Below, one piece after another: positions 1 to 12,079 of a DNA stretch of 12,079 nt. The stretch covers positions 1-12,079 of the forward strand of contig CAJWBT010000034.1 of NCBI GenBank assembly GCA_913020235.1, given 5' to 3'. Position 1 is the first letter of the stretch; the number at the start of each line of letters is the position of its first letter. The translations under genes and the position numbers were made by a program. The notes under the pieces were generated by a model, which was not told where the DNA came from, made no database searches, and saw only the letters and a list, made by a program, of their open reading frames with translations. Source of the stretch: an uncultured Chloroflexota bacterium (GTDB taxonomy: Bacteria > Chloroflexota > Dehalococcoidia > UBA3495).

Positions 1-518
1 CCGGCCTTGGCGGCATCATAGGCCGATGACCGGGGCCGTCCCCTGAAGGAAGCCCATCCGGAGATATTGGTCACGCAACCCTGGCCTCGCTCCAGAAAAT
101 GGGAGCCAAACGCCCGGCAGCCTTGAAAGGCCTCGGTCAGGTTGATGTCCAGGACGTGATGCCACTCCTCCTCGGTCATCCCCTCCGCCGTGGTGCCTGG
201 AAGGGTTACAACCGGCTTACGAATGGCATCGCCCACACAATTGACCAGAGTATCCAAGCCGCCAAACTCATCCAGAACCTGCCGGGAGATGCGGTCCATC
301 TCCGCCCCTTTGGTGGCGTCTCCGGTAAGGGGAAGGGCGACGCGCCCCAGTGCCCGAATCTCTTGGGCCACCCTGTCGACTCCCGTTGATGTCAGCCCGG
401 TAATCGCTACCTCGGCCCCTGCCTCGGCAAAAGCCAGGGCGATGCCCTTTCCGATACCCCGCCCGGCGCCGACCACCAGGACCTTTTGACCGGTTATGTC
501 AAACACCGAGACGCCCAT
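1..518 (-). CDS. SDR-family NAD(P)-dependent oxidoreductase, C-terminus beyond window
   Basis: The reading frame opens at an ATG on the minus strand and is still open at the left edge, giving 172 residues of a family that usually has 240-280. A GGAGGG ribosome site lies four bases before the ATG. The Rossmann glycine motif is GAGRGIG (residues 17-23). D67 follows beta3, N93-C-V-G stands where NNAG is usual, N126 matches the conserved helix Asn, and Y167 and K171 form YxxxK. The residue 13 before the Tyr, normally the catalytic Ser, is G154, with S153 next to it. SDR enzymes oxidise or reduce alcohol and ketone groups with NAD(P) in the cytoplasm. The substrate cannot be read from the sequence. 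The family call is secure; activity is less certain because of the Gly. Confidence 0.93.
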   Translation of the reverse strand, partial: MGVSVFDITGQKVLVVGAGRGIGKGIALAFAEAGAEVAITGLTSTGVDRVAQEIRALGRVALPLTGDATKGAEMDRISRQVLDEFGGLDTLVNCVGDAIRKPVVTLPGTTAEGMTEEEWHHVLDINLTEAFQGCRAFGSHFLERGQGCVTNISGWASFRGRPRSSAYDAAKA

Positions 519-588
519 GGCACCCTCCGGTTACCCAAGGCTTTTCCGGCTCGGTTGCCGCCTAAGCCTGACCCGCATTCAGGGTGGG

Positions 589-617
589 AGTTTAATGGAA
601 GACGTCAACACCGTCAA
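589..617 (-). promoter_or_regulatory. Sigma70-like promoter for the SDR gene
   Basis: On the minus strand, TTGACG (612-617, five of six consensus bases) is followed after exactly 17 bases by TAAACT (589-594, four of six). The start of transcription would fall near 582, leaving a leader of about 64 bases before the ATG at 518. CGTCAAC occurs twice (603-609 and 612-618) over the -35 box. This is consensus matching by eye only. Confidence 0.45.
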
Positions 618-765
618 CGCAGCCTATACCTCCTGCCAAGTCCAACACTGGGCCGCGGGCTGCCAACGCCCAGCTTCCAGGTGGAGCGCCCCAGCCTCCC
701 GGTGGCCGGTTCCCGATAGCGGTGTTTCTACTTCCCTGCGATGGGAGCCGGGGCTTTGACGCCAT

Positions 766-793
766 TTGCAAACGGGAGTAAGATTCGGATACT
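766..793 (+). promoter_or_regulatory. Candidate promoter for the relic and FAH gene
   Basis: TTGCAA (766-771) and GATACT (788-793) are spaced by 16 bases, each matching four of six consensus bases. Transcription would begin around 800, directly at the tandem 11-base repeats, and run about 90 bases to the relic's ATG at 890. No better pair was seen before the FAH gene. Confidence 0.33.
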
Positions 794-801
794 CTTCGCC
801 A

Positions 802-824
802 AGAACGTCCGGGAGAACGTCCGG
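802..824 (+). repeat. Tandem 11-bp direct repeat, possible operator
   Basis: AGAACGTCCGG occurs twice, at 802-812 and 814-824, a period of 12 bases. Just beyond it CGGCCCTC occurs twice (829-836 and 843-850). The position directly downstream of a candidate -10 box would suit a repressor site. No regulator gene is in view, so the role is inferred. Confidence 0.4.
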
Positions 825-889
825 CCGTCGGCCCTCAGGCACCGGCCCTCGGATGTGCAGTCAACCGTCTTCGACCAGGAGATCGACCC

Positions 890-1027
890 ATGAAAGCGGT
901 GTTCATCGAGCGGCACGGCGGCCCGGAGCCCGGTGATTCCTTGGGCCGGCCAGGAGCCACAGCGGGTCCGGCCCCAGACCCAAAAATCCAAACAGGTAAC
1001 AGGAGCAATGGCCATGAAATTCGCTAG
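890..1027 (+). pseudogene. Truncated start of a zinc-type alcohol dehydrogenase/quinone oxidoreductase gene
   Basis: An ATG with an AGGAG nine bases upstream opens a 45-codon frame beginning MKAVFIERHGGPE. That is the typical amino terminus of medium-chain dehydrogenase/reductases such as quinone oxidoreductase (about 320-340 residues). After GGPE the likeness is lost and the frame ends at TAG 1025-1027. The rest of the gene, including the Rossmann fold and any zinc ligands, is absent. The simplest reading is a gene remnant left by an internal deletion. Its end overlaps the FAH start (1014) by 14 bases in another frame, so it may still be translated as a coupled leader. Thirteen matching residues are few, so the family call is moderate. 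Confidence 0.5.
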
Positions 1028-1769
1028 GTATCTTGCCCACGGACAGGTCGCCTACGGGGTGGTGGAAGGGGAGACAGTAAAGGAGTTGAGCGCCAGCCCC
1101 TTCGAGGACTACAAGGTGACCGACCACTCCCACAAGCTATCGGAGGTCAAGCTGCTCGCCCCCTGCCTCCCATCCAAGATCTTGGCCATCGGGCTGAACT
1201 ACTCCAGCCACCTGGGCGACCGTACACCGCCCGCCGAACCCATGGTGTTCTTCAAGACCCTGAGTTCGGTAATCGGCCCGGACGACACTATCATCCGGCC
1301 CAAGGGCACCGCCAGGCTCGATGCCGAGTGTGAACTGGTGGTCGTGATAAAGGATCGCTGCCGCAACGTGCCCAAGGGGGAGGCGATGCAGCACGTCCTG
1401 GGCTACACTTGCGGCAACGACGTGAGCGCCCGCGACTGGCAGCAGGCAGACCGCAACTGGTGGAGGGCCAAGTCTTCGGACACCTTTTCTCCCGCGGGCC
1501 CCTTCATTGTGACCGACCTCGACCCTGACAACGTGCGGGTTGCCTGCCGGATCAACGGCAAGGAGATTCAGGGGGAAACCACCAAGTTCCTGATCTTCGA
1601 CGTCCCCACCATCATCTCCTACGCCACCCAATTCATGACCCTAGAGCCGGGGGACATGATCTACACGGGCACGCCGGGGACGCCGGGCGAACTCAAGGAC
1701 GGCGATGTCTGCGAAATCGAAGTGGAAGGGGTGGGCGTGCTGAGCAACCCGGTAAAGCTGGAAAAGTAG
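1014..1769 (+). CDS. Fumarylacetoacetate hydrolase (FAH) family protein
   Basis: This 251-residue protein has the FAH catalytic fold across most of its length. Motifs in order are IGLNYSSH (59-66), EPMVFFK (75-81), the metal-ligand pair E105-C-E107, GYTCGNDVSARD (130-141) with D136 as another likely metal ligand, K153, INGKEIQ (180-186) and PGDMIYTGTPG (212-222). The family cleaves C-C bonds in diketo acids, hydrates or decarboxylates ring-cleavage products, or decarboxylates oxaloacetate, using Mg2+ or Mn2+ in the cytoplasm. The length and motifs fit the bacterial catechol-pathway and acylpyruvase branch better than true tyrosine-pathway FAH. I chose ATG 1014 because GGAG at 1002-1005 is eight bases away; ATG 1008 is only two bases from it. 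The substrate is unknown. Confidence 0.93.
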   Translation: MKFARYLAHGQVAYGVVEGETVKELSASPFEDYKVTDHSHKLSEVKLLAPCLPSKILAIGLNYSSHLGDRTPPAEPMVFFKTLSSVIGPDDTIIRPKGTARLDAECELVVVIKDRCRNVPKGEAMQHVLGYTCGNDVSARDWQQADRNWWRAKSSDTFSPAGPFIVTDLDPDNVRVACRINGKEIQGETTKFLIFDVPTIISYATQFMTLEPGDMIYTGTPGTPGELKDGDVCEIEVEGVGVLSNPVKLEK

Positions 1770-1798
1770 ACCCAACCGTGGCTGGGCTGGATTCACGG

Positions 1799-1832
1799 GA
1801 GAGGGGCCGGCCGGCCTTCCCCGGCTCCTCTC
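1799..1832. terminator. 12-bp hairpin between convergent genes
   Basis: The arms GAGAGGGGCCGG (1799-1810) and CCGGCTCCTCTC (1821-1832) pair over 12 positions with one G-T wobble, around a 10-base loop. It lies 29 bases after the FAH stop and about 160 bases beyond the FIST stop on the other strand. There is no T-run on either side, so it is not a classic intrinsic terminator. In a GC-rich genome it may still end or stabilise transcripts from both directions. Confidence 0.4.
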
Positions 1833-1992
1833 GCCGACCCAGTTCGTGAGCCTAGTTGGCGCAGCCTTTGCCGCTGCGTCCGGCGTCTCTACCAGCCTCC
1901 GGGCATGAATGGAGCCGAGCCCCGTTAGGGCCAGGTACCGGTGGGGGTGGATGGCGTCAACGGCCTCGGCAAACCACTCTTTTGGATGGTCC

Positions 1993-3177
1993 TCAGTACT
2001 TGGGCCGGAACATGGCGAAGGAGCTGGTGTAGCCGTGCAGGAAGGTCGTGCCGCTGACCGGGCCGATCTCTCCGTTGCAGAAGAATCCCCCCAAGGGCAC
2101 CGGGCCAAGCTTCTGGCGGAAGATGTCGGAGTCGTGGTTGGGCCGGCCGTACAGGTACTGCCCCCGGCCCAAGCAGGAGAACAGCAGGGCGCCATCAACC
2201 TGGTTCTCCCGGTTGTCCAGAGCGTACCGCTCCAGCACGGCGGTCAGGTCTTCGGCCGAGGTTTCGGCGTCCCGAAGGTGGAACTGCACCAACTGGCCTT
2301 CTTTCAGCAGCTCACCGATGGCCAGGGTTCCGGTACGGCTGTCGATACCGACCACATTGCGGATCAAGAAATCGCCCTGCTCCGGCGCCTCTATTAGCTC
2401 GTCCATCACCACCCCCAAGAACAGCGAATGGCGCATCAGCTCCCGGTCCCGGCGGTTGACCTGCTCGAACAGTTTCTTCATCACAGTCAGGGGCGGCTGC
2501 CCTTCCAGTCCGATCAGCACGTTGCGCCGGCTCTTGGATACTCGCATGGGCTGGCCGATGGGGCGGCAGCCTTGGGCCACGACGGTGTCCACGGTGATGT
2601 TACCGTGGAGGGCCAATCCAACGGCCCCGGAGCGGTACACCCGGCCATTCAGGAACAGCGCATTTCGCCCCATTTGGTCGGCGCTGCTGGCCAGCCCGCC
2701 TATCTTAACCGACCGGCTGAACGCGAAGTCCAGCCCCATCAATAGGTCCTGGACCGGGAAAGAAAGAGGGTCCGCCAACATGACGAACTGGGGGTCCTGG
2801 CCGAGGGATACGTGGACCAGCGCTTCCCAGGCGCCCGGCCCGGCGTCCAGGTCCGGGAGGCTTTCCTGGTCCAGGCAGAAGTCCACGATCTCCACGCCGG
2901 GCAGAACGGCGGCGGTTATGGACACGGCAGGACGGTGCTCCACCTCCTGGCCGCCACCAATGACACCACCACTGGAACAACCGAAGACCATGGCCGTGGC
3001 CAGCTTCTCCTCTACGAGCCGGGCCACGTCGTCGTAATCCCGCTCATAGTGGGAGGAAACGAATGTCACCGCCAGGTCTGGCGCCGGATCTCCCAGTCTG
3101 GATCGCACGCCGGCGGCACACTCTTCAACGGCACGGGTCAGGTCTGCCTGTTCGGAAACCGCCGAAGCCCATTTCAT
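1993..3177 (-). CDS. FIST N- and C-terminal domain protein
   Basis: The 394-residue protein matches the two-part FIST architecture. The N-domain (about 30-235) has AVTFVSSHY (36-44) and GCSSGGVIGGGQEVE (66-80). The C-domain (about 240-385) has ALLFSCLGRG (330-339) and GGFFCNGEIGPVSG (363-376). FIST domains were defined as putative ligand-binding sensory modules, often joined to signalling domains. This copy stands alone, with no signal peptide or membrane segment, so it is probably cytoplasmic. There is no clear Shine-Dalgarno before ATG 3177, although that is the only Met near the domain start. It lies 61 bases downstream of the M28 lipoprotein gene on the same strand, but a candidate promoter between them suggests separate expression. 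The function is not established. Confidence 0.9.
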   Translation of the reverse strand: MKWASAVSEQADLTRAVEECAAGVRSRLGDPAPDLAVTFVSSHYERDYDDVARLVEEKLATAMVFGCSSGGVIGGGQEVEHRPAVSITAAVLPGVEIVDFCLDQESLPDLDAGPGAWEALVHVSLGQDPQFVMLADPLSFPVQDLLMGLDFAFSRSVKIGGLASSADQMGRNALFLNGRVYRSGAVGLALHGNITVDTVVAQGCRPIGQPMRVSKSRRNVLIGLEGQPPLTVMKKLFEQVNRRDRELMRHSLFLGVVMDELIEAPEQGDFLIRNVVGIDSRTGTLAIGELLKEGQLVQFHLRDAETSAEDLTAVLERYALDNRENQVDGALLFSCLGRGQYLYGRPNHDSDIFRQKLGPVPLGGFFCNGEIGPVSGTTFLHGYTSSFAMFRPKY

Positions 3178-3219
3178 ATAGCGCCCGCAGACAGTTCAGA
3201 GTCCGGATGAACTACTCCG

Positions 3220-3249
3220 AGTATACCAATTCCGGCCGCTATTTGAGAA
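3220..3249 (-). promoter_or_regulatory. Extended -10 promoter candidate for the FIST gene
   Basis: On the minus strand, TGG-TATACT (3220-3228) gives an extended -10 element with five of six -10 bases matching consensus. TTCTCA (3244-3249), 18 bases further upstream, matches the -35 in four of six. The -35 would lie inside the end of the peptidase gene. The leader to ATG 3177 would be about 35 bases. Confidence 0.4.
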
Positions 3250-4612
3250 TCGCCAGAAAATCCGGTGACTCGAGGAGGGCCAGAGCCACACCGGCCGCGT
3301 CGCCCAGGAGGTGCGGCGTAACAAACGCCAGCGTGTCTTGGGGGGTGTGAATCCGGGAAAAGTCCTCGGCGAAAAACATTATCGCCGGTATGCCCATACC
3401 GGTGAAGCTCATGTGGTCGCTGCTCGCTCCTTCAAGCCCGGCGCCGACCTCCAGATCGATCCCCAACCCGGTTCCCAGCCGCACCGCCAGGCCCGTCAAC
3501 TCCTCGCTACCCAACACCCTCGGACTGTCGCCGTTCCCGAGGGCGTCGAAGTTCAGCATCGCCTTGATCCGACGTTGCTGATCATCGGATAGCGAGTCCA
3601 CGTAGTGTTTGCTTCCCAGCAAGCCCAACTCCTCGGACCCGAAGGCTATGAGACGAAGGGTGAACGGGAACGGCTGCCCCGAAAGCTCTCCGGCGACGGC
3701 GAGGAGCACCGCGGTCCCGGATGCGTTGTCGTTGGCGCCGGATATGTTTGGCAGCGAGTCGTAGTGGGCGCCCAGTACCACCACCGCGTCGCCCGGCCCT
3801 CGCTTCTCCGCGATCACGTTCTGCGAGGGACGCATTACGCTCTTGACCGAAACGCTCAACTCCACCGTTCCAGCTGATGTCAGCTGCTCCAGCCGTCTCC
3901 CGTCCGCTCGAGACATGGACATAGCGGGAACGGCGCCCGGACTGATGAGCACTCCCCGGAAATTGCCGGGCCGGTCGTTGTAGATGACGACGGCGATGGC
4001 GCCAGCCTCCGCGGCCCGGTTGACCTTCTCCTCGAAAGTTATGAGGCCCCGCTCTGCCATGGCGATCTTCCCTTCCAGCCCCCCCTCTGGAATATCCCCA
4101 TCCAAAGCCAATCCGACGGGAACCAGGGTTCCCGAAGCGTCACCCGTACCGGAACCCGTCAGCGGAAAGGCATCGACCGGCTCAGGCTCTGGCCCCTCCA
4201 GAACCACGCCCGACTCCTCTCTGGACATGAACTCCACGACGAAGGGCTGTAACTCCACGGCGTAGCCGAAGTTTTCCAGTTGGCTTGCCAGATACTCCGC
4301 CGCCGCCCGTTCCTGGCCGGTGGCGCTCTCCCTTGGTCCCAGGTCCTCCACAAGCTCGGTGAGGTAACCGAAGGCGATGTCCGCCAGGCCAGTGCCGCCC
4401 GCAGGGGATGGGGTCACGGCCGGTACAGCGGTGGGCCTGGGGGTAGAAGTAGGGGTTAGAGTAGGGGTAGAGGTGGCGGGCGGAGCCGGAGTAGGCGTCG
4501 CGGAGGTAGCTGCGCTGGAACAGGCGAGTGCAATGGCGGCCAGTAAAACCACAAGACCAACGATGACAGCCGGCCGTCCGGGCGCAACGCCCGATGCAAG
4601 GTGATTCTTCAC
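3239..4612 (-). CDS. M28-family metallopeptidase lipoprotein with PA domain
   Basis: This 457-residue protein has a hydrophobic signal (about 15-30) ending in IALAC. C31 is the likely lipidated cysteine, although Ala rather than Leu is at -3. A Thr/Pro-rich linker (36-70) follows. Residues about 155-250 resemble the protease-associated insert. The M28 zinc site is complete: H283 (GAHYDS), D295 (GANDNASG), E327-E328 (GSEELGL, E327 the general base), D356 (NFDALG) and H422 (RIHTPQDT). The family contains aminopeptidases that release N-terminal residues. Here it would act at the cell surface, supplying amino acids or trimming peptides. The start is GTG 4612 with a weak AAGGG site; an in-frame TAA (4619-4621) rules out an earlier start. 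Specificity is unknown. Confidence 0.93.
   Translation of the reverse strand: MKNHLASGVAPGRPAVIVGLVVLLAAIALACSSAATSATPTPAPPATSTPTLTPTSTPRPTAVPAVTPSPAGGTGLADIAFGYLTELVEDLGPRESATGQERAAAEYLASQLENFGYAVELQPFVVEFMSREESGVVLEGPEPEPVDAFPLTGSGTGDASGTLVPVGLALDGDIPEGGLEGKIAMAERGLITFEEKVNRAAEAGAIAVVIYNDRPGNFRGVLISPGAVPAMSMSRADGRRLEQLTSAGTVELSVSVKSVMRPSQNVIAEKRGPGDAVVVLGAHYDSLPNISGANDNASGTAVLLAVAGELSGQPFPFTLRLIAFGSEELGLLGSKHYVDSLSDDQQRRIKAMLNFDALGNGDSPRVLGSEELTGLAVRLGTGLGIDLEVGAGLEGASSDHMSFTGMGIPAIMFFAEDFSRIHTPQDTLAFVTPHLLGDAAGVALALLESPDFLAILK
4433..4473 (+). repeat. G-rich 12-bp tandem repeat encoding the Thr/Pro linker
   Basis: On the plus strand four G-runs (4433-4435, 4439-4443, 4452-4455, 4464-4467) are separated by 3, 8 and 8 bases, and AGTAGGGGT recurs with a period of 12. 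Read on the minus strand this encodes part of the lipoprotein's Thr-Pro linker, so the repeat is explained by coding. Length change by slippage is likely in such a tract. Confidence 0.6.
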
Positions 4613-4642
4613 GGGCCCTTACTGAACCTCGACAGTTTGAAT

Positions 4643-4659
4643 ACGTACAAAGCGTACGT
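4643..4659. promoter_or_regulatory. Palindrome upstream of the M28 gene, possible operator
   Basis: ACGTAC (4643-4648) and GTACGT (4654-4659) are perfect inverted arms around five bases, 31 to 47 bases upstream of the GTG start. The same spacer holds a GC-rich near-perfect palindrome (GCGCCGG-A-CCGGCGC, 4687-4701) and ATGAGC-GG-GCTCAT (4749-4762). No matching -35/-10 pair is convincing here. The 219 bases between the two minus-strand genes contain no gene that I can see. Confidence 0.3.
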
Positions 4660-4831
4660 TGGCCGGCTTCAGGACTCGGGCTCGGGGCGCCGGACCGGCG
4701 CGCGGCCTGCATCCCCCGGCTTGGTATAGATTGGTACGAAATTGGGGCATGAGCGGGCTCATCCGCGAGGGGCGACGACCGGCCAGTCCTCCCGGCCGCT
4801 TGAAGACCAAGTGCTTTTTGATGAGTCCGGA

Positions 4832-7800
4832 CTAGCTCCAGTCCACCGCGTACACCCGGTGTACCCCGGCCAGCCCCTTCAGCTCCACCTCTTGCTCTTC
4901 TCCAAACCGAATGTCTCCACCGCTCTCGGTCAGCTCTTTGAGGAGCGCCGACACCAGGATTTCCCCGCCATCAGCCTGGTCTGCGATACGCGACGCCAGG
5001 ATTACGTTCTTGCCGAAGAAGTCCTCCATTTCCTGGACGAACTCCCCGGTGTGCAGGCCAATACGCACCAGGACAGGTTCCTTGGAGTGCTCCTGGTTGT
5101 GGGCGGCAAAGGCCCGCTGGATGGCCATGGCACATTGTAGGGCCCGGCGGGCCGAGGAGAAAGCCAGCATGAAGCCGTCGCCCAGGGACTTGACCTCAAA
5201 CCCGCCGTGGGCCGCCACCTGGTGCCGGACGATGGCGTTGTGGCCCCGCAGCACCTGCTGGGCGCGCTGGTCCCCCAGCCGCTCGGTCATCTGGGTAAAG
5301 CTCTCGATGTCGCTGAACAGGATGGTAACAGTGCCGTCGGGAGCTGTTTGGGGGCGCAGGTCAGGTTTCTCCCCCTGTACTGCCGAGGCGACGGAGTCGA
5401 TGGAGGTCTTGATATCCACCGAGGCGACTCCCTGGATTTCCAGCTTGCGGGCCAGGACTCGTTCCATCAGAGGCCGCATGCCCAGCTCGCTGGAGATGGC
5501 CAAGGACTCGTCCAAGAGAGCGATGGCCCGCGATCGATCATCCTGAGCCTGTCGAAGGACGTCGGACGCCGGTGGTTCGACAGGCTCACCACGAACGGAC
5601 CGAGAACGCTGGATTAGGCAATCGGCATTGTCGCAGCAGGCCCAGGCCAACTCGGGACGGTAACCCCCATTACGGCAGAAGGTCAAGGCGTCGTCGAAAT
5701 GGACGATCGCCTGATCGAGCTTCCCCATAGTCTGAGCCAACAGGCCCAGTAGACGGTCCCCAGAGATTACGAATAACGAGAATGTGTGCCGCCATTGCTT
5801 GATGACGGCATATTGCTTCTCGGCCAAGCCGGCGTCACCCGATAGGACCGCTATCATCGCCAGACCGGCGTTAGAGTACCCGATCGCGAGTGGCGTGGCC
5901 TGGGCGTACCCCAGAACACGCTCAGCAGCACTCTTGGCGGACTCTAGATGATCCACCACCCCGGTTATCCTGGCGACTAATGGCGCAGTCATCGCCATGC
6001 GGCCGGAAACGGATGTATTCATGAACGCGGATTCTCCCGCCTCCCCAGCAGCCTTCGACAGCAAATCCAAGTGGAAGTTACCTTGATGATGGTCGCCTAT
6101 TTCGTGTTCAATCAGAGCAAGTTCTACCCATGCATGGAAAGGACGTGACCCTATCTCTAATGTGCGTTGGCTAAACGATCGCGCCATCTCCCACTCTCCA
6201 CCGAGACGCAACGTCATCGCGTTTTTCCATAAAGCGCCCTCCAGCCAGAACCGGTCACGCAACTGTTCTGCTGGCGACATCATCTCCGAAGCATGCCGCT
6301 TAGCTGCCTCCAACTCACCTTTTTCGATTAGGCAGGTTACCACGAAGTAAAGGGCGGACACCTCTGGACGTGGATCGGGTACACGTTTAGTCAGCTCGAT
6401 CGCTTTGAGGCCGCTATCCAGAGCTTCGTCATATCGCATGTGATTGGAGTACACGGAAGCGACCGCTACCAAACTTTGCAACTCCAGGGCCTCATCTCCC
6501 TCACGTCGTGAGATAACGAGGGCTTGGTTTAGTGCGTCAAGGGCTTCGTCGAAGGCGGCATCTTGCAAGCCGATGAATTGCCCATACCGTGACAGCAGCC
6601 GGCCTGACAGCAACGAATCCGCCGGGACAAGGGGTAGAGCCCGAGCGACGAGTTGCCCCAGTCCGATACGCCTCGCTGCCCCATAGTCCGGGAACTCCGC
6701 GATGGCCACTACCTGTTCCATGTCTCCGGATTCCGCATAGTAGTCCAAGGCCCGGCGGAGGGTGACATATGCCTCATCATCAAGAAGCGCTATCTGGGAA
6801 CGGCCCAGGCCAACCAGCACTGCCGCCGTCTCGGCGTCAACGGGCTGCCCTTCCTTGGCTGCCAGCGCCCGCTGGAAGTGCCCCAGCGCCCTCTCGTAGG
6901 CGTAGGCGGCCAAACCGCGCTCCCCGGCCAGCAACGAGTAGCGGACCAGCTTTTCAGCGCCCAGCAACGTCTGGGCCTCGGCGAAGTGGCGGGCCAGCTC
7001 CCCGGCGTGGGCCTCCGCATTCTCGCCGTACAGTTCCTCCAGGGCTTGGGCGATGCGGGCGTGCAGCCGCACCCGCCGGGTGGTGGACAGCTCCTGGGCC
7101 AGGGTATCCTGAATCAGCGCGTGGGTGAACTGGTAGCGGCCCACCGCCTGGGGTAGCTCCTCTATCACCCGCGCCCCCAGCGCCTCCTCCAACACCCCCA
7201 AAATGCGGTCCTCGGACATATCCTCGACCAGGGGCGCCAGCTGCTGAAACTCGAACTGCCGGCCGATTACCGAGGCGATTGTCAACGTCTCGTTGCACCT
7301 TTGGGATAGCCGGTTGAGGCGCCGCCCGATCACCTCCTTCACCCCTTCGGGTATCCGCACACGCCACGACGCCCTCGTGCCCAGCCGGTCCGGCGTAAGC
7401 TCTCCTTCCTGGACCAGCAGCCGCACCACCTCGGTCACGAACAGAGGGTTGCCCTCGGTGTGGGCATGCACTGCGCTTACCAGGCCCCGGGGAGGCGTGA
7501 TCCCGGCAGCTATCTCGATGAAGCGCGCCACGTCCTGCCGGGTCAGCCCCCGCAGCAGCACCCGTTGGAATAGCCGTTCCCGGTTCAGCCCACCCAGGGT
7601 CTCGGACAGAGGATGCTGCCGGTTAAGCTCCATGTCCCGGTAGGTGCCGATCACCAACAGCCGGGCTCCAGCCAGCTCCCGGGCCAGGAACTCCAGCAGC
7701 AGCAGAGAGGGCTTGTCGGCCCAGTGCAGGTCATCCAGCATCAGCACCAGGGGCTGCCGCTGACTCGCCGTCTTCAAGAACGCTGTAATGGAGTCGAACA

Positions 7801-9295
7801 AACGGAACCGGGCCTGATCCGGCTCCAGGGCCGGCGGCGCTGCCAGGCCCGGCAGCCGTTCGCTTACGTCCGACACTATCCGGGCGATGTCCGCCGCCCC
7901 GGACCCCATCTCCGTGCGTAGCTGCTCGGGGTCCCGGTCCCGGACGTAAGACCGAATAGCCTGAACCCAAGGCCAGTAGGGAGGCGTGCCCACCTCCTCG
8001 TAACAGCGGCCCCACAGGACCTGAGCGCCCCGCAGTCCCGCGTTGGTGGCCAGCTCCTGGGCCGTCCGGGTCTTGCCGATGCCTGGTTCCCCCACCAGCA
8101 TCACCAGCCGGCCGCGCCCCGACAGTGCGTCTTCTAGGCCCGCCTTCAGTTCACCCATCTCGGCCTGTCTGCCGACAAACACGCCGCCCGCCAAGCGGTC
8201 CAGGGAGTGGGCGCCGTCCTCTGGGGGTCCCGATGCATCGGGACGAATCGCCCCTACGTCCGCCAGATCAATCCCCTCCAGGGCGGCGAGCACGTCGGCG
8301 GCCGACTCCGGTCTGTCCGATGGGTCCTTGGCCAGTAGCCGGAGTATTAGCGCTTCCAGATGACGCGGGCATTGCCCGCTGTGCCAGGTGGGGGCCACCG
8401 GCGGCGTGTTGATGTGCTGGCCGATGATGGCCACCGGATCATCCCCCAGGAACGGTGGCCTCCCGGTGACCATCTCGTACAGCATGGCCCCCAGTGAGTA
8501 CAGATCGGACCGGGGGGTCACTTCGCCGCCCATGGCCTGCTCCGGCGGCATGTAGGCCACCGTGCCCACCATCATGCCCTCGGTGGTGATGCGGGAGTAG
8601 TCCAGCACCACCGCCAGGCCGAAGTCGCCGATCTTGGGAGTGCCCTCCGAAGTCAGCCACACGTTTCCCGGCTTCACGTCTCGGTGGACGATGCCCCGGC
8701 TGTGGGCGAACTCCAGACCCCGGCACACTCCTCTGGCGATGTCTAAAGACTGCTCCAGGTCGATGCGGTGATCCGGAGCGTCTGCGATGAGTCCCTCGAC
8801 ACCCCCACCCGGCATCAACGGCAAGACCAGGTAGGGCCGGCCCCGTTCTTCACCCATGTCATGTATCTGGAGGATGTTGGGGTGGTCGCCCAGGCGTGCC
8901 GTGGCCTGGGCTTCCCTAGTGATGCGGGTCCTGGAGGTTTCATCCAACCCCTCTGCTTTGATAACCGCCAGTGCCACGTCCCGGTCCAGGACGCCGTCAT
9001 GGGCCATGTAGACCCTTTTCTTGCCGCCCTCACCAAGGAACTGTTTGACCTGGTAACGGCCGTTGGCGAAGGAGGAGGGGTCGGCAGCACCGCTCTGAAC
9101 ACCTCCGGGGCCGGGAGAAGAGACCGGTGCGTCGGCGGCACTCAAGCGGGCGCCGCAACCCCGGCAGAACCTCAGGCTCGAGGGATTGGGGTGGCCGCAT
9201 GCAGGACAGGGCCGCTCCGAAACGAAGGAACTCCCGCAGTGACCGCAGAACCTCGAGTCTTCAGGGTTTTCCTGGCCGCAGGACGGGCAGAGCAT
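4832..9295 (-). CDS. Zinc ribbon - Ser/Thr kinase - ATPase - TPR - nucleotide cyclase fusion protein
   Basis: This is a 1487-residue cytoplasmic signalling protein. (1) Two zinc ribbons: C3/C6/C17/C20 and C30/C33/C44/C47. (2) Kinase, about 81-344: glycine loop GEGGKKRV (88-95), alphaC E128, HRDVKPGN (204-211), DFG (224-226), PPE (250-252), R328. The beta3 VAxK lysine is A110. (3) STAND/AAA_16-like ATPase, about 371-640: Walker A GEPGIGKT (402-409), Walker B LVLMLDD (516-522), GTYRD (550-554). (4) Helical TPR part, about 770-1290. (5) Class III cyclase, about 1320-1487: metal Asp D1329 and D1373, K1369 in the base-selecting position, R1436 kept, but I1432 where Asn is usual. ATG 9295 was chosen because a GGAGG site lies nine bases before it and zinc ribbon 1 starts at once; the open frame upstream has no domain. 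Substrates of both catalytic domains are unknown. Confidence 0.95.
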   Translation of the reverse strand: MLCPSCGQENPEDSRFCGHCGSSFVSERPCPACGHPNPSSLRFCRGCGARLSAADAPVSSPGPGGVQSGAADPSSFANGRYQVKQFLGEGGKKRVYMAHDGVLDRDVALAVIKAEGLDETSRTRITREAQATARLGDHPNILQIHDMGEERGRPYLVLPLMPGGGVEGLIADAPDHRIDLEQSLDIARGVCRGLEFAHSRGIVHRDVKPGNVWLTSEGTPKIGDFGLAVVLDYSRITTEGMMVGTVAYMPPEQAMGGEVTPRSDLYSLGAMLYEMVTGRPPFLGDDPVAIIGQHINTPPVAPTWHSGQCPRHLEALILRLLAKDPSDRPESAADVLAALEGIDLADVGAIRPDASGPPEDGAHSLDRLAGGVFVGRQAEMGELKAGLEDALSGRGRLVMLVGEPGIGKTRTAQELATNAGLRGAQVLWGRCYEEVGTPPYWPWVQAIRSYVRDRDPEQLRTEMGSGAADIARIVSDVSERLPGLAAPPALEPDQARFRLFDSITAFLKTASQRQPLVLMLDDLHWADKPSLLLLEFLARELAGARLLVIGTYRDMELNRQHPLSETLGGLNRERLFQRVLLRGLTRQDVARFIEIAAGITPPRGLVSAVHAHTEGNPLFVTEVVRLLVQEGELTPDRLGTRASWRVRIPEGVKEVIGRRLNRLSQRCNETLTIASVIGRQFEFQQLAPLVEDMSEDRILGVLEEALGARVIEELPQAVGRYQFTHALIQDTLAQELSTTRRVRLHARIAQALEELYGENAEAHAGELARHFAEAQTLLGAEKLVRYSLLAGERGLAAYAYERALGHFQRALAAKEGQPVDAETAAVLVGLGRSQIALLDDEAYVTLRRALDYYAESGDMEQVVAIAEFPDYGAARRIGLGQLVARALPLVPADSLLSGRLLSRYGQFIGLQDAAFDEALDALNQALVISRREGDEALELQSLVAVASVYSNHMRYDEALDSGLKAIELTKRVPDPRPEVSALYFVVTCLIEKGELEAAKRHASEMMSPAEQLRDRFWLEGALWKNAMTLRLGGEWEMARSFSQRTLEIGSRPFHAWVELALIEHEIGDHHQGNFHLDLLSKAAGEAGESAFMNTSVSGRMAMTAPLVARITGVVDHLESAKSAAERVLGYAQATPLAIGYSNAGLAMIAVLSGDAGLAEKQYAVIKQWRHTFSLFVISGDRLLGLLAQTMGKLDQAIVHFDDALTFCRNGGYRPELAWACCDNADCLIQRSRSVRGEPVEPPASDVLRQAQDDRSRAIALLDESLAISSELGMRPLMERVLARKLEIQGVASVDIKTSIDSVASAVQGEKPDLRPQTAPDGTVTILFSDIESFTQMTERLGDQRAQQVLRGHNAIVRHQVAAHGGFEVKSLGDGFMLAFSSARRALQCAMAIQRAFAAHNQEHSKEPVLVRIGLHTGEFVQEMEDFFGKNVILASRIADQADGGEILVSALLKELTESGGDIRFGEEQEVELKGLAGVHRVYAVDWS
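5544..5588. repeat. Dispersed-type inverted repeat inserted in frame in the TPR region
   Basis: TGAGCCTGTCGAA (5544-5556) and TTCGACAGGCTCA (5576-5588) are perfect 13-bp inverted arms around 19 bases. This core, with the following CCACGAACGG, looks like a short palindromic repeat that I recall in many copies in several bacterial genomes. On the coding strand it reads as about residues 1231-1254 (SVRGEPVEP ... RQAQDD), a hydrophilic piece unlike the helices on either side. Its length keeps the frame open. Only one copy is in this window, so dispersal is from recall. Confidence 0.75.
8227..8244. repeat. Perfect 18-bp palindrome in the kinase-ATPase linker
   Basis: GTCCCGATGCATCGGGAC reads the same on both strands. 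It encodes roughly residues 351-357 of the fusion protein, within the linker between the end of the kinase domain and the start of the ATPase. It resembles another dispersed palindrome that I recall from metagenomic genomes. A regulatory role inside a coding linker is unlikely. Confidence 0.6.
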
Positions 9296-9431
9296 CGGAA
9301 ATGTCCTCCTCCTTCCATGCCCCGGGTCGGGATGCTCCACGGCTTCATCCGGCCCGAAAATGGAGACCGGGAGCCGAGCATTCCAAATAAAGGGTCTTCT
9401 GAGCACCCGTCTGACCTTTGATGCGTGGCTG

Positions 9432-9461
9432 AGTATAGCATCACCCACCCGATGGTGTGAA
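9432..9461 (-). promoter_or_regulatory. Promoter for the kinase-cyclase fusion gene
   Basis: On the minus strand, TTCACA (9456-9461, five of six) and TATACT (9432-9437, five of six) are 18 bases apart, and TGC just before the -10 gives an extended element. Transcription would start near 9425, giving a leader of about 130 bases before ATG 9295. No riboswitch-like fold was recognised in that leader. Confidence 0.5.
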
Positions 9462-9580
9462 GCGTCAGGCCCCTGGCCGCCGGCAATGCTTGCAGGAACC
9501 GGTCGACAGCTACACTTTCCGGATGAGGGTAGGTCACAGTCACCTGAAACCGCTGCCGGGTGGTGCGACCTGTTTGCGGC

Positions 9581-9609
9581 TGGACACGTGGCCGGGCCAA
9601 GGGTATATT
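9581..9609 (+). promoter_or_regulatory. Promoter for the GatC-like/amidase operon
   Basis: TGGACA (9581-9586) and TATATT (9604-9609) each match consensus in five of six bases and are exactly 17 bases apart. Transcription would begin near 9616, about 24 bases before ATG 9640. This is the best promoter match in the window. Confidence 0.6.
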
Positions 9610-9639
9610 GATGACCGGGCAAACCGAGGGGAGGACGCC

Positions 9640-9822
9640 ATGGCATGGTCCGATGAAGACCGGGTCCGGGAGCTGGCGCGGCTGGCCGGGATCACCATCG
9701 CGGAAGACGAGGTGCCCGAGGTGACCAGCCGGTTCGGCAGCCTGATGCAGGAGCTGGAGCGGCTCACGGAGCTGGACCTATCCGACATTCAGCCGGTGGT
9801 CATATTCCCGGAGGAGCAGTAG
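9640..9822 (+). CDS. Short GatC-like protein
   Basis: The 60-residue protein follows the GatC pattern: RVRELARLAGITIAEDEV, then a helical QELERLTELDLSDIQPV. In GatC this part wraps around GatA in the tRNA-dependent amidotransferase that makes Asn-tRNA or Gln-tRNA. Typical GatC is about 95 residues. This one stops after the IQPV stretch and lacks the C-terminal tail. GGAGG at 9630-9634 is five bases before the ATG. The gene lies 39 bases ahead of an amidase-signature gene, and no gatB is seen, so it more likely serves as a partner or stabiliser of that amidase than in tRNA amidation. The family call rests on a short sequence. Confidence 0.72.
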   Translation: MAWSDEDRVRELARLAGITIAEDEVPEVTSRFGSLMQELERLTELDLSDIQPVVIFPEEQ

Positions 9823-9861
9823 GCCAACCCGGTAGCAAGGCATACTTCAAAAGGAGGAAGG

Positions 9862-11286
9862 ATGACCGGCCAGGAGATCGCCATGCTCTCGGCGGCCGAG
9901 ACCGCCTCGGCCATACGGTCCAAGCGGGTCTCGCCCGTCGAGGCAGTTCAAGCCTACCTGGAGCGCATCGACCGGCTGGATTCCAGGCTGGCCTCCTACA
10001 TCACGGTGTGCCGGGAGGAAGCCTTGGAGGCCGCCCGCCGGGCTGAGCGCGCCCAGATGCGGGGCGACGCCCTGGGGCCCCTGTTCGGCGTACCCATTGC
10101 GGTCAAGGACCAGTTCTGGACCAAGGGCATCCTCACCACCAACGGCTCCCTGGTCTATCGGGACTTCGTTCCGGACGAGGACGGCACGGTCATTGCCAGG
10201 ATCAAACAGGCCGGGGCGATCCTGCTGGGCAAGCTGAACCTCAGCGAGTTGGCCATGGGAGGCACCGAGCAGCCGCCGTGGGGCATCCCGGCGAACCCCT
10301 GGGACCTGGAGAGAACGCCGGGCGAGTCCAGCAGCGGGTCCGGCGTGGCCTTGGCGGCCCACCTGTGCGCCGCCTCGGTGGGCGAGGACACCGGCGGCTC
10401 CGGCCGGGGTCCGGCGGCCTACTGTGGCGTCGTGGGGCTGCGGCCCACTTTCACCCGGGTGAGCCGACACGGTATGACCCCCATGTGCTGGTTCCTGGAC
10501 TCCGCCGCTCCGATGGCCAAGATAGTGGAGGATTGTGCGCTGGTGCTCGGCGCGATCGCGGGATTTGACTCCAAAGACCCCTACACCAGCCGTAGGCCGG
10601 TCCCTGACTATACCGCCACACTCGATACCGGGGTCAGGGGCCTGCGGGTTGGCCTGATCCGCGAGTTGCACGAGAGCGAGGACATGCACCCCGAGGTGAA
10701 GCAAGCGGTTGAGAAGTCCATGGAGGTTTTCCGGGACCTGGGGGCCCAGGTGCGAGAGGTGTCGATTCCCCTGGTCCCCTGGGCTGGAGCCGTCTTCGTT
10801 GGCATTGCGGATACCGAAGGGGCCGGAGCCCGCGACGATATACTGCGGTCCAGGCCCGGCGAGCTGGACCGGGCCACCAGGACCCGGCTGCAGGCCGCGG
10901 CCCTGATGCCCGCCAAGGTGTACAACCGGGCCGCCCGGGCCCGAGTGCTGCTGCGCCGCCAGTTCATGGAAGCCCTGGAGCAGGTGGACGTGCTGGTGTC
11001 GCCAACCTCACCGTACCCGGCCCCCAAGCACACCGTCCTCAGCGCCCCCTTCCAAAACGCTGACGACGTCCGGGCCCGGTTCTTCTTCCGGCGCTCCTAC
11101 ACCAGTTGCTACGCCCTAACGTCGATGCCCGCAATCTCCATCCCCGGCGGTTTCACCTCGGACAACCTGCCCATAGGGCTACAGCTGGGGGCCCGCCCCT
11201 TCGCCGAAGAGACCCTGTTCAGGGCCGCTCGCGCCTACGAGCAGGCGACCCCCTGGCACGAGAGGATTGCCCCGGCAGCAGCATAA
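9862..11286 (+). CDS. Amidase signature family enzyme (GatA-like)
   Basis: This 474-residue protein has the amidase-signature Ser-cisSer-Lys triad: K82 in IAVKD, S156 in GESSSGSG and nucleophile S180 in GEDTGGSGRGPAAYCG. The S156-S180 spacing of 24 agrees with FAAH. The surrounding LTTNGS and KLNLSELAMGG are also family-typical, and the length is normal. Such enzymes hydrolyse amides or esters, or in GatA release ammonia from Gln. Small departures are E155 where Gly usually precedes the cis-Ser, and G181 where Ile is common after the nucleophile. A strong AAGGAGG precedes ATG 9862. With the GatC-like gene upstream it resembles a gatCA pair, but with no gatB and a hydrolase gene next, a catabolic amidase is the better guess. 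The substrate is unknown. Confidence 0.93.
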   Translation: MTGQEIAMLSAAETASAIRSKRVSPVEAVQAYLERIDRLDSRLASYITVCREEALEAARRAERAQMRGDALGPLFGVPIAVKDQFWTKGILTTNGSLVYRDFVPDEDGTVIARIKQAGAILLGKLNLSELAMGGTEQPPWGIPANPWDLERTPGESSSGSGVALAAHLCAASVGEDTGGSGRGPAAYCGVVGLRPTFTRVSRHGMTPMCWFLDSAAPMAKIVEDCALVLGAIAGFDSKDPYTSRRPVPDYTATLDTGVRGLRVGLIRELHESEDMHPEVKQAVEKSMEVFRDLGAQVREVSIPLVPWAGAVFVGIADTEGAGARDDILRSRPGELDRATRTRLQAAALMPAKVYNRAARARVLLRRQFMEALEQVDVLVSPTSPYPAPKHTVLSAPFQNADDVRARFFFRRSYTSCYALTSMPAISIPGGFTSDNLPIGLQLGARPFAEETLFRAARAYEQATPWHERIAPAAA

Positions 11287-11295
11287 TGTGCCGGT

Positions 11296-11312
11296 GGCCG
11301 GAAGTCCCGGCC
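11296..11312. terminator. Small hairpin after the amidase gene
   Basis: GGCCGG (11296-11301) and CCGGCC (11307-11312) pair around a 5-base loop, nine bases after the amidase stop. No T-run follows. It could attenuate transcription or protect the 3' end, but in GC-rich DNA a 6-bp stem can arise by chance. Confidence 0.25.
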
Positions 11313-11364
11313 CCTCCGCCCGCTTGTTTCTGAAGGCTTCGATCTCAACGGGAGGATATACCCC

Positions 11365-12079
11365 ATGCCAACCGTGCCCGCCGGCCCCGATGTGGAGCTG
11401 CACTACTACGACGACGACTTCACCGACCCCTGGCGCTCCGCCCCCGCCATGCTGCTGCAACACGGCTTCTCCCGCAACGGGCGTTTCTGGTACAACTGGG
11501 TGCCGTTGCTGGCCAGGGAGTTCCGGATTCTCCGCCCGGATATGCGGGGCATGGGCCGGTCCGCCATGGACGAAGCCAAGTACGAGCCGTCGCTGGACAC
11601 GTTTGCCGGAGACGTTCTGCGTGTCCTGGACCGGGCCGGGATCGAAAAAGTGGTGTTCGTGGGGGAGTCCTTCGGTGGCATCATCGGGCTGAAGTTCGCC
11701 CACGCTTACCCGGACCGGGTCCGGGCGCTGGTGCTTTGCAACACGCCCTGCCGCCTGCCCCACGCCGACCTCCGGAAGAGGTTCTCCGCGGGCGGCGACT
11801 GGGACGCGACGATGCGCCGGGGCATAGGAGCCTGGTCCACTTCCACTATCGGCATGCGTCTGGACACGAGGGTCGCGCCCCAAGGGCTGGTGGACTGGTA
11901 CATCGCCGAGATGGACCGGACTTCCCCGGCCATCGGCCTGAAGCTGCAAGCCTCCCTGGACACCCTGGACTTCAGCCCTCACCTGAAAGAGGTCGCCGGG
12001 CCGGTCCTATTGCTGGTGGGGGAGGAGTCCCCTACTTCCACCCTGGAGCAGCAGCGCTTCATGGCGGAGCAGCTACCCA
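11365..12079 (+). CDS. Alpha/beta-fold hydrolase, C-terminus beyond window
   Basis: The frame from ATG 11365 is open to the right edge (238 residues; the family is usually 260-300). GGAGG at 11351-11355 lies nine bases upstream. The oxyanion motif is LLQHGF (30-35), then the conserved RPDMRGMGRS (57-66) and the nucleophile elbow GESFGG (100-105, S102). A helical cap spans about 130-200. The catalytic acid is usually in G-x-x-D after strand beta7; here that spot reads GEESP (219-223), with Ser in place of Asp. The catalytic His would be beyond the edge. The gene follows the amidase by 78 bases on the same strand and may be in its operon. Esterase, C-C hydrolase or haloperoxidase-like activities are possible. 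Confidence 0.9.
   Translation, partial: MPTVPAGPDVELHYYDDDFTDPWRSAPAMLLQHGFSRNGRFWYNWVPLLAREFRILRPDMRGMGRSAMDEAKYEPSLDTFAGDVLRVLDRAGIEKVVFVGESFGGIIGLKFAHAYPDRVRALVLCNTPCRLPHADLRKRFSAGGDWDATMRRGIGAWSTSTIGMRLDTRVAPQGLVDWYIAEMDRTSPAIGLKLQASLDTLDFSPHLKEVAGPVLLLVGEESPTSTLEQQRFMAEQLP

Follow-up and report, generated by a model that had tools for sequence, protein, structure and literature searches.

In WNK1 and WNK3, the lysine that binds ATP is carried by strand beta2 (K233 in WNK1) and the usual beta3 position, 17 residues further on, holds a residue other than lysine (C250), with the HRD motif and the glutamate of helix alphaC both kept. A survey from 2007 described a shift of positive charge from position 72 to position 55 in WNK and, as an arginine, in the CAK-chloro family, and in the accessible part of its text WNK is the only functional eukaryotic protein kinase (ePK) family without K72 (Kannan 2007, PMC1821047). 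POMK (SGK196) also lacks the VAIK lysine and carries it on beta2, and excerpts of PMC10211241 state that mutating the beta2 lysine abolishes the activity of both WNK1 and POMK. The beta3 lysine is absent or varied as well in the pseudokinase families ActPs1-3, GLW, CP1, DYD and DLHK of O'Boyle et al. 2025, and conserved beta2 arginines of DLHK are proposed to bind ATP in the available part of that paper (PMC12599244). Here we analyze a kinase encoded in a 12,079-nucleotide stretch of DNA from an uncultured Chloroflexota bacterium (the window; contig CAJWBT010000034.1, positions 1 to 12,079), where it forms one domain of a 1,487-residue protein (4832..9295, minus strand) in which Pfam finds zinc ribbons, the kinase, an AAA_16 ATPase, TPRs and a class III cyclase. 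The aligned sequences of this domain and its relatives suggest, with a probability that we put at about 0.8, a distinct subfamily of Hanks-type (PknB-like) Ser/Thr kinases in which the lysine that binds the ATP phosphates has shifted from beta3 to beta2 (Lys93), and whose members are active enzymes and not pseudokinases.

The family shares with WNK1 the beta2 lysine, the non-lysine beta3 residue and their spacing; furthermore, WNK1 has a Phe at the position of Trp213 and a Gly before its DLG motif. It differs from WNK in being bacterial, in being PknB-like by both sequence and fold, in standing beside canonical prokaryotic kinases in our tree, in having mostly Ala or Ser instead of Cys at the beta3 position and DFG instead of DLG, and in the other domains to which it is fused. 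POMK has migrated motifs for HRD and DFG and phosphorylates a sugar, whereas the family keeps HRD and DFG. CAK-chloro, for which the available text of PMC1821047 proposes the shift of charge from 72 to 55, is a different family of the superfamily, with Arg in place of Lys and Phe in place of the alphaC glutamate, whereas the present family is Hanks-type and retains that glutamate. According to the part of PMC12599244 at hand, the families of O'Boyle et al. have additionally lost HRD, DFG or the alphaC glutamate, or carry Arg, Thr, Leu or Trp at beta3, and no family with a beta2 lysine and all other motifs intact is described there. A canonical kinase-AAA_16 group (L325, P0241 and P0353), sister to the family in the tree, resembles the window protein in its AAA_16 domain after the kinase, its GEGGK start and its K113, and differs in having G93 and K110; the kinase domain of L325 is 51% identical to that of the window. 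Among the papers listed by our literature search, none concerned a bacterial Hanks family lacking the lysine; the atlas of bacterial kinases on which the O'Boyle review builds (Sci. Signal. 2025, adt8686) lay outside that search and may include the group.

Lysine positions in the window kinase and its relatives

Residues are numbered from the ATG at 9295, the likely start within a mechanical frame that runs from 9646 to 4832 on the minus strand and yields 1,487 residues; raw Pfam-search coordinates are one higher, and all features of the kinase domain lie on the minus strand. The domain covers residues 81-330 (8306..9055; PF00069, 152.6 bits), and its AlphaFold2 (AF2) model has a predicted local distance difference test (pLDDT) score of 89.4 and a predicted template modelling (pTM) score of 0.88. 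It has the fold of a Hanks-type, PknB-like kinase together with HRD (204-206; 8678..8686), DFG (224-226; 8618..8626) and Glu128 of helix alphaC (8912..8914); the lysine of the beta3 VAxK motif is absent, with Ala110 (8966..8968) in its place at the end of VALA (107-110, ending at 8966). PPE lies at 250-252 and Arg328 is present, and this numbering recovers each residue named in the preliminary description.

Lys93 (9017..9019), proposed as the relocated ATP-binding lysine, belongs to the segment GEGGKKRVY (88-96; 9008..9034), which spans the glycine loop and the start of beta2. The preliminary description had also set K93 on WNK1 K233 and A110 on WNK1 C250, and this holds: in solved WNK1 chains the Lys and the Cys are 17 apart, the same spacing as that of K93 and A110. 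Aligned with PknB (6b2p), the domain runs without gaps from the glycine loop to beta3, with A110 on the catalytic lysine of PknB and K93 on the Ser after GGM. In the AF2 model, K93 (model residue 24) is the first residue of beta2, A110 lies within beta3, E128 is in alphaC, and K113 (8957..8959) is one residue past beta3. An alignment error can be rejected as the cause of the A110/K93 pattern, because the PknB alignment is ungapped, the WNK1 spacing identical and the AF2 strands in agreement.

We next compared positions 93 and 110 across relatives. All sets of rows were collected by likeness to family members or their relatives, or by shared genome, and not as a random draw of kinases. Pooled, they comprised 780 rows, 706 of them unique and 678 with both positions readable. 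Among these 678 domains, 372 had K93 and a residue other than Lys or Arg at 110, 293 had K110 without K93, 11 had R110, two (P0221 and P0001) had neither lysine, and none had both. At 80% identity the 308 remaining domains divided in the same way (134 with K93 and non-K/R110, 164 with K110 and without K93, nine with R110 and one with neither). Thus K93 is present in 372 of the 374 unique domains with non-K/R110, which answers the check proposed in the preliminary description, that K93 be invariant wherever 110 is not lysine. Residue 110 of the 135 such domains at 80% non-redundancy was Ala in 91, Ser in 38, Gly in two, Cys in two, Thr in one and Asp in one (P0001). When an earlier pooling (122 and 124 domains, with R110 and neither left out) was put to a Fisher test, the result was 1.8e-73, a value that is no true probability because the rows share descent; judged from the aligned sequences, the association of K93 with non-K110 exceeds chance.

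The individual searches gave the same picture. The close search covered 5.8 billion proteins, and the best 120 of its 6,644 matches gave 128 aligned kinase-domain rows including the query, four of them without the region at 93. K93 was found in 119 of the 120 readable non-K110 rows, and in these 119 residue 110 was Ala in 115, Gly in three and Ser in one; the exception was a degenerate tandem domain of P0001 (V93/D110). E128 was present in all 119 K93 rows, and the HRD and DFG aspartates in the 118 with residues there, while four rows from the multi-kinase proteins P0001 and P0014 had K110 with Ala or Gly at 93. A scan of GTDB genomes with patterns for the catalytic loop and activation segment gave 567 loci; the 80 that most resembled the query were taken, and they showed K93 in 82 of 82 readable domains and K110 in none, with 11 further rows lacking the region. 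A second protein search was seeded with the divergent member L107 (Ser110/Asn113); its best 120 of 4,473 matches gave 126 rows, of which 115 had K93, one had H93 (P0221), eight were canonical or degenerate tandem kinases and two lacked the region. Residue 110 was Ala, Ser, Cys or Gly in this set (Cys, as in WNK, in P0151 and P0153), and residue 113 was Lys, Asn, Arg, Cys, Gln or Thr.

As same-genome controls we took 28 genomes with family members and used their Pkinase matches, leaving out many of those of G004 and several fragments. Twelve of the 199 unique rows lacked the region, and the other 187 comprised 83 with K93 and non-K110, 100 with K110, four with R110 and none with both lysines. 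Position 93 was Gly, Ala, Ser, Thr or Val in the K110 rows and Thr, Ala or Gly in the R110 rows, and HRD was lost in three of the latter four.

Catalytic residues and alternative readings

The remaining catalytic residues are retained throughout the family. Among the 374 non-K/R110 domains, E128 was found in 372, the exceptions being Gln in L211 and Ser in P0001, and in the 360 domains readable further on, D206 was found in 358 (Val in L060, which reads HRV for HRD, and Asn in P0001), N211 in all 360, D224 in 359 and F225 in 356. The canonical rows at 80% identity had D206 in 154, D224 in 158 and E128 in 156 of 164; the catalytic residues of the family are therefore at least as well kept as those of canonical rows. 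Because these other residues stay constrained, an active kinase using K93 is the simplest reading. The lysine that binds the ATP phosphates would then have left beta3, where the window kinase has Ala110 and other members have Ser, Gly, Cys or Thr, and would now sit where beta2 begins; Lys93 would most likely enter the pocket from the glycine loop and beta2, touch the alpha and beta phosphates of ATP and pair with Glu128, and HRD and DFG would work as usual, leaving the enzyme active. We infer the contact of K93 with ATP, and catalysis.

Several points weigh against this. The relocation is one event or a few, and the row counts are non-independent. P0221 combines His93 and Ser110 with intact HRD and DFG, and L060 (HRV) and L211 (L211:59-874; Gln128) may be inactive members or sequence errors. 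Moreover, nucleotide-binding pseudokinases can retain conserved catalytic motifs.

The domain could accordingly be a pseudokinase: it would bind ATP through K93, or not bind it, with no phosphotransfer, and its role within the STAND/cyclase protein would be allosteric or that of a nucleotide sensor. By the motif criterion, under which the loss of at least one of the beta3 lysine, the HRD aspartate and the DFG aspartate marks a pseudokinase, it would be so classed through the beta3 lysine alone, and the available text of PMC12599244 treats that loss as the usual rule. The fusion of the kinase domain to other enzymes, the many copies in some genomes (11 in G012) and the decay in single members, such as L060 (HRV) and P0221 (His93), also fit this reading. 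However, the HRD aspartate, Asn211, the DFG aspartate and the alphaC glutamate are conserved as well as or better than in canonical rows, degenerate domains in the same sample (the R110 rows L242, L243 and L245, and residues 605-858 of P0001) have lost HRD too, and in several genomes none of the examined kinases with this fold would be active. We thus consider a pseudokinase unlikely, and an active kinase with its lysine at position 93 the preferred reading.

Besides 93 and 110, positions 213 and 223 show the largest differences between family and canonical rows. Residue 213 (Trp213 in the window; 8657..8659) is aromatic, nearly always Trp, in 126 of 135 family domains compared to 12 of 164 canonical rows at 80% identity, and Gly223 (8627..8629), immediately before DFG, is found in 130 of 135 compared to 6 of 164; the two marks occur together in 125 of 135 and 2 of 164, respectively. 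In the larger set of 360 readable family domains, Trp213 is present in 332 and Gly223 in 353. Position 213 is presumably that of PKA L173, a C-spine residue under the adenine. P0353 (Dehalococcoidia by name), a canonical G93/K110 sister, already has both Trp213 and Gly223; in the other three canonical sisters residue 223 is Met and residue 213 is Met or Leu, and L325 and P0241 have Met at both. Going by these residues, P0353 may be an intermediate in which Trp213 and Gly223 preceded the move of the lysine; that the two changed together with the lysine is a weakened idea, since P0353 has both beside G93/K110.

The preliminary description had ventured an ion-sensing role. On this reading the freed pocket would sense chloride or another ion, as in WNK, and thereby switch the kinase. 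With Gly223 ahead of DFG and a small side chain at 110 there should be room for an ion, and several records that carry the family have ocean names (in their titles only). However, the WNK DLG motif, with the Leu369 of the chloride site, is absent from the window protein. By spacing in solved WNK1 chains, L369 is the Leu of DLG, and the family has the Phe of DFG at this position, as in the window protein and 356 of 360 readable domains (Leu in three, Tyr in one). According to the accessible part of PMC13397483, WNK1 L369F and WNK3 L295F are chloride-insensitive mutants. Because the DFG Phe of the family matches this insensitive state, WNK-type chloride control is unlikely, and ion sensing by the pocket is a reading to which we give very little credence.

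That K113 or K92, rather than K93, replaces the missing lysine is less credible still. Among close relatives (best 120 of 6,644) K113 is Lys in 118 of 119 and K92 is Lys or Arg in 118 of 119, which would favour them; however, at 80% identity, 113 is Asn, Asp, Ala, Cys, Gln or Glu in 14 of 135 family domains and 92 is Gln, Thr, Leu, His, Ser or Val in 66 (Gln in 58), whereas K93 is kept in 134. In the 374 unique family domains, residue 113 is Lys in 306, Arg in 29, Asn in 31, Asp in two, Thr in two, and Ala, Cys, Gln and Glu in one each, non-basic in 39 overall. Of the columns that are more than 90% basic in the family, only 93 has no basic residue in canonical rows (122 of 123 family domains compared to 0 of 124). 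Furthermore, K92, G93, K110 and K113 occur together in each of the four canonical rows that are sister to the family in the tree, and the K110 rows gathered with L325 have Lys113 in 68 of 156 and Arg113 in another 68. Because canonical sisters carry K92 and K113 beside K110, both are older than the loss of the lysine. Together with the place of K113 past beta3 in the AF2 model, conservation and the sister rows put both residues out as substitutes, and K113, which had been named as the rival candidate, does not take the role.

Origin and distribution of the family

The best sequence matches among solved structures were PknB, StkP and PknA (best 60 of 2,716), and the fold comparison, with 50 Foldseek and 50 VIA rows, included PknB, PknA, Stk1, Nek7, Aurora and others; no WNK was among these best 50 and 50 rows, an absence that proves nothing. 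We built a careful tree of 84 rows in which columns 92-94, 110, 113 and 213 were left out; it had no WNK row, and its bootstrap had not fully settled. In this tree 41 family rows, one of them with H93, grouped at 99/95, and four canonical kinases with G93 and K110 formed the sister group of the family (97/85); three of these four are named from Dehalococcoidia, Bathyarchaeota and Thermoplasmata. The best solved relatives are PknB, PknA and Stk1, and the sister group in the tree, which holds no WNK row, is prokaryotic and canonical. Because the sister rows are canonical, it is most likely that K93 emerged within canonical kinases of prokaryotes, convergently with WNK. L198 (L198:89-856) has K93 and Cys110, the exact WNK pair, together with Met213 and Ala223, and fell outside the main clade in the careful tree; an approximately unbiased (AU) test did not reject a single clade that includes it (p 0.505), and an earlier quick tree placed all 42 family rows together at 80. 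By its residues, L198 may represent a second, independent relocation. P0332, P0335 and P0356, canonical relatives of the L325 group, carry source names from Bathyarchaeota and Thermoplasmata, a possible sign of gene exchange across domains of life or of mis-binned contigs.

The preliminary description had suspected a whole subfamily, and its members do occur in records of several phyla: the titles from the GTDB scan (best 80 of 567 loci) name Chloroflexi, SAR202, Dehalococcoidia, Actinomycetota, Acidimicrobiia, Solirubrobacterales, Acidobacteria, Deltaproteobacteria, Myxococcales and Thermomicrobiaceae. In the phylum of G001, 16 of 301 sampled genomes passed E 1e-60, and only three of these (at least 387 bits) had K93, the other fetched ones being A93/K110. 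In the phylum of G003, 45 of 296 passed the same threshold; eight (at least 294 bits) had K93, and the 12 loci fetched from the rest were A93/K110. At E 1e-75, the phylum of G002 had matches in 4 of 188 genomes, the one match among 199 genomes in the phylum of G004 was the centre itself, and in the class of G001 17 of 197 genomes matched, one of these 17 being unconfirmed because the other match in the genome of L325 lacks the N-lobe. K93 was present in 27 of the 28 unique readable domains of L301-L330, L325 being the canonical one. The family thus has a patchy distribution, and among the groups sampled it is most frequent in the class to which the SAR202 genome belongs. Among plasmids 939 records matched, all below 60% identity and the best listed at about 41-43%; no close relative was seen among these 939, in which residues 93 and 110 were left unread.

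In some genomes every Pkinase match was of the K93 type (11 of 11 in G012, 5 of 5 in G001, and 3 of 3 in each of G015, G017 and G022). The same was true of four of four matches above cut-off in G006, where one weaker match gave no row; K93-type matches numbered two in G010 (with a fragment left over), one in G013 and one in G014 (one match unlisted). These counts come from draft genomes, and canonical kinases may lie outside the assemblies. The branch with Gln92 is probably undercounted, because the thresholds were set for relatives of the window protein. Its matches (L107, P0121-P0240) carry alpha/beta hydrolase, class III cyclase, receiver or DUF4242 domains, and the kinase module therefore appears to be widely recombined.

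Protein layout, neighbourhood and implications

Outside the kinase, the protein has a double zinc ribbon at residues 3-48 (9152..9289; Pfam DZR/Zn_Ribbon_1), a STAND-like AAA_16 ATPase at 373-549 (7649..8179) and a class III adenylate/guanylate cyclase domain at 1320-1481 (4853..5338; PF00211, 79 bits), all on the minus strand, and GGAGGAGGA lies 8 bases upstream of the ATG at 9295. The N-terminal kinase followed by the AAA_16 ATPase and TPRs (Pfam) gives a layout like that which we take to define PknK, and the canonical relative L325 likewise has a kinase and then AAA_16. Judged by domain content, the kinase is probably the output or the input of a large signal-integrating switch formed by the zinc-ribbon, STAND ATPase, TPR and cyclase protein. 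A dead gene is unlikely, as the frame is long and intact and the motifs are conserved. An inverted repeat with 22-nucleotide arms (82%) lies in frame within the gene at 5535-5597, inside a RGEPVEPPASDVLRQAQDD stretch; TTCGACAGGCTCA is found on both arms, where shuffles give 0 expected, and L066 was the one locus among the 300 sampled that contained the 13-mer. The element resembles a palindromic repeat that was inserted into coding sequence.

The genes around the kinase gene (933-12078) look ordinary. By Pfam they encode an FAA hydrolase (933-1769), a FIST protein (1993-3177), an M28 peptidase (3239-4612), an amidase (9862-11286) and an alpha/beta hydrolase (from 11365), and Pfam gave no match for a short frame at 9640-9822.

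The relocation of the residue parallels WNK and POMK, and from the sequences compared it is most likely a derived state. We also considered that in some bacteria the whole Hanks-type kinome might consist of relocated-lysine enzymes; their pocket, reshaped by the small side chain of residue 110, by Trp213 beneath the adenine and by Gly223 before DFG, would alter nucleotide preference or admit a regulatory ligand and in this way couple the kinase with its fused partners, the STAND ATPase and the cyclase. This is a tentative and rather unlikely idea. Whether a kinase is called dead or alive depends on three residues, among them the beta3 lysine, and proteins of this family, dead by the usual motif rule, are probably working enzymes. 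The family thus urges caution when pseudokinases are called from motifs in bacterial kinomes, supplies bacterial models of WNK-like ATP binding and, set beside its canonical sister group, allows the states before and after the relocation of a catalytic residue to be compared in nature.

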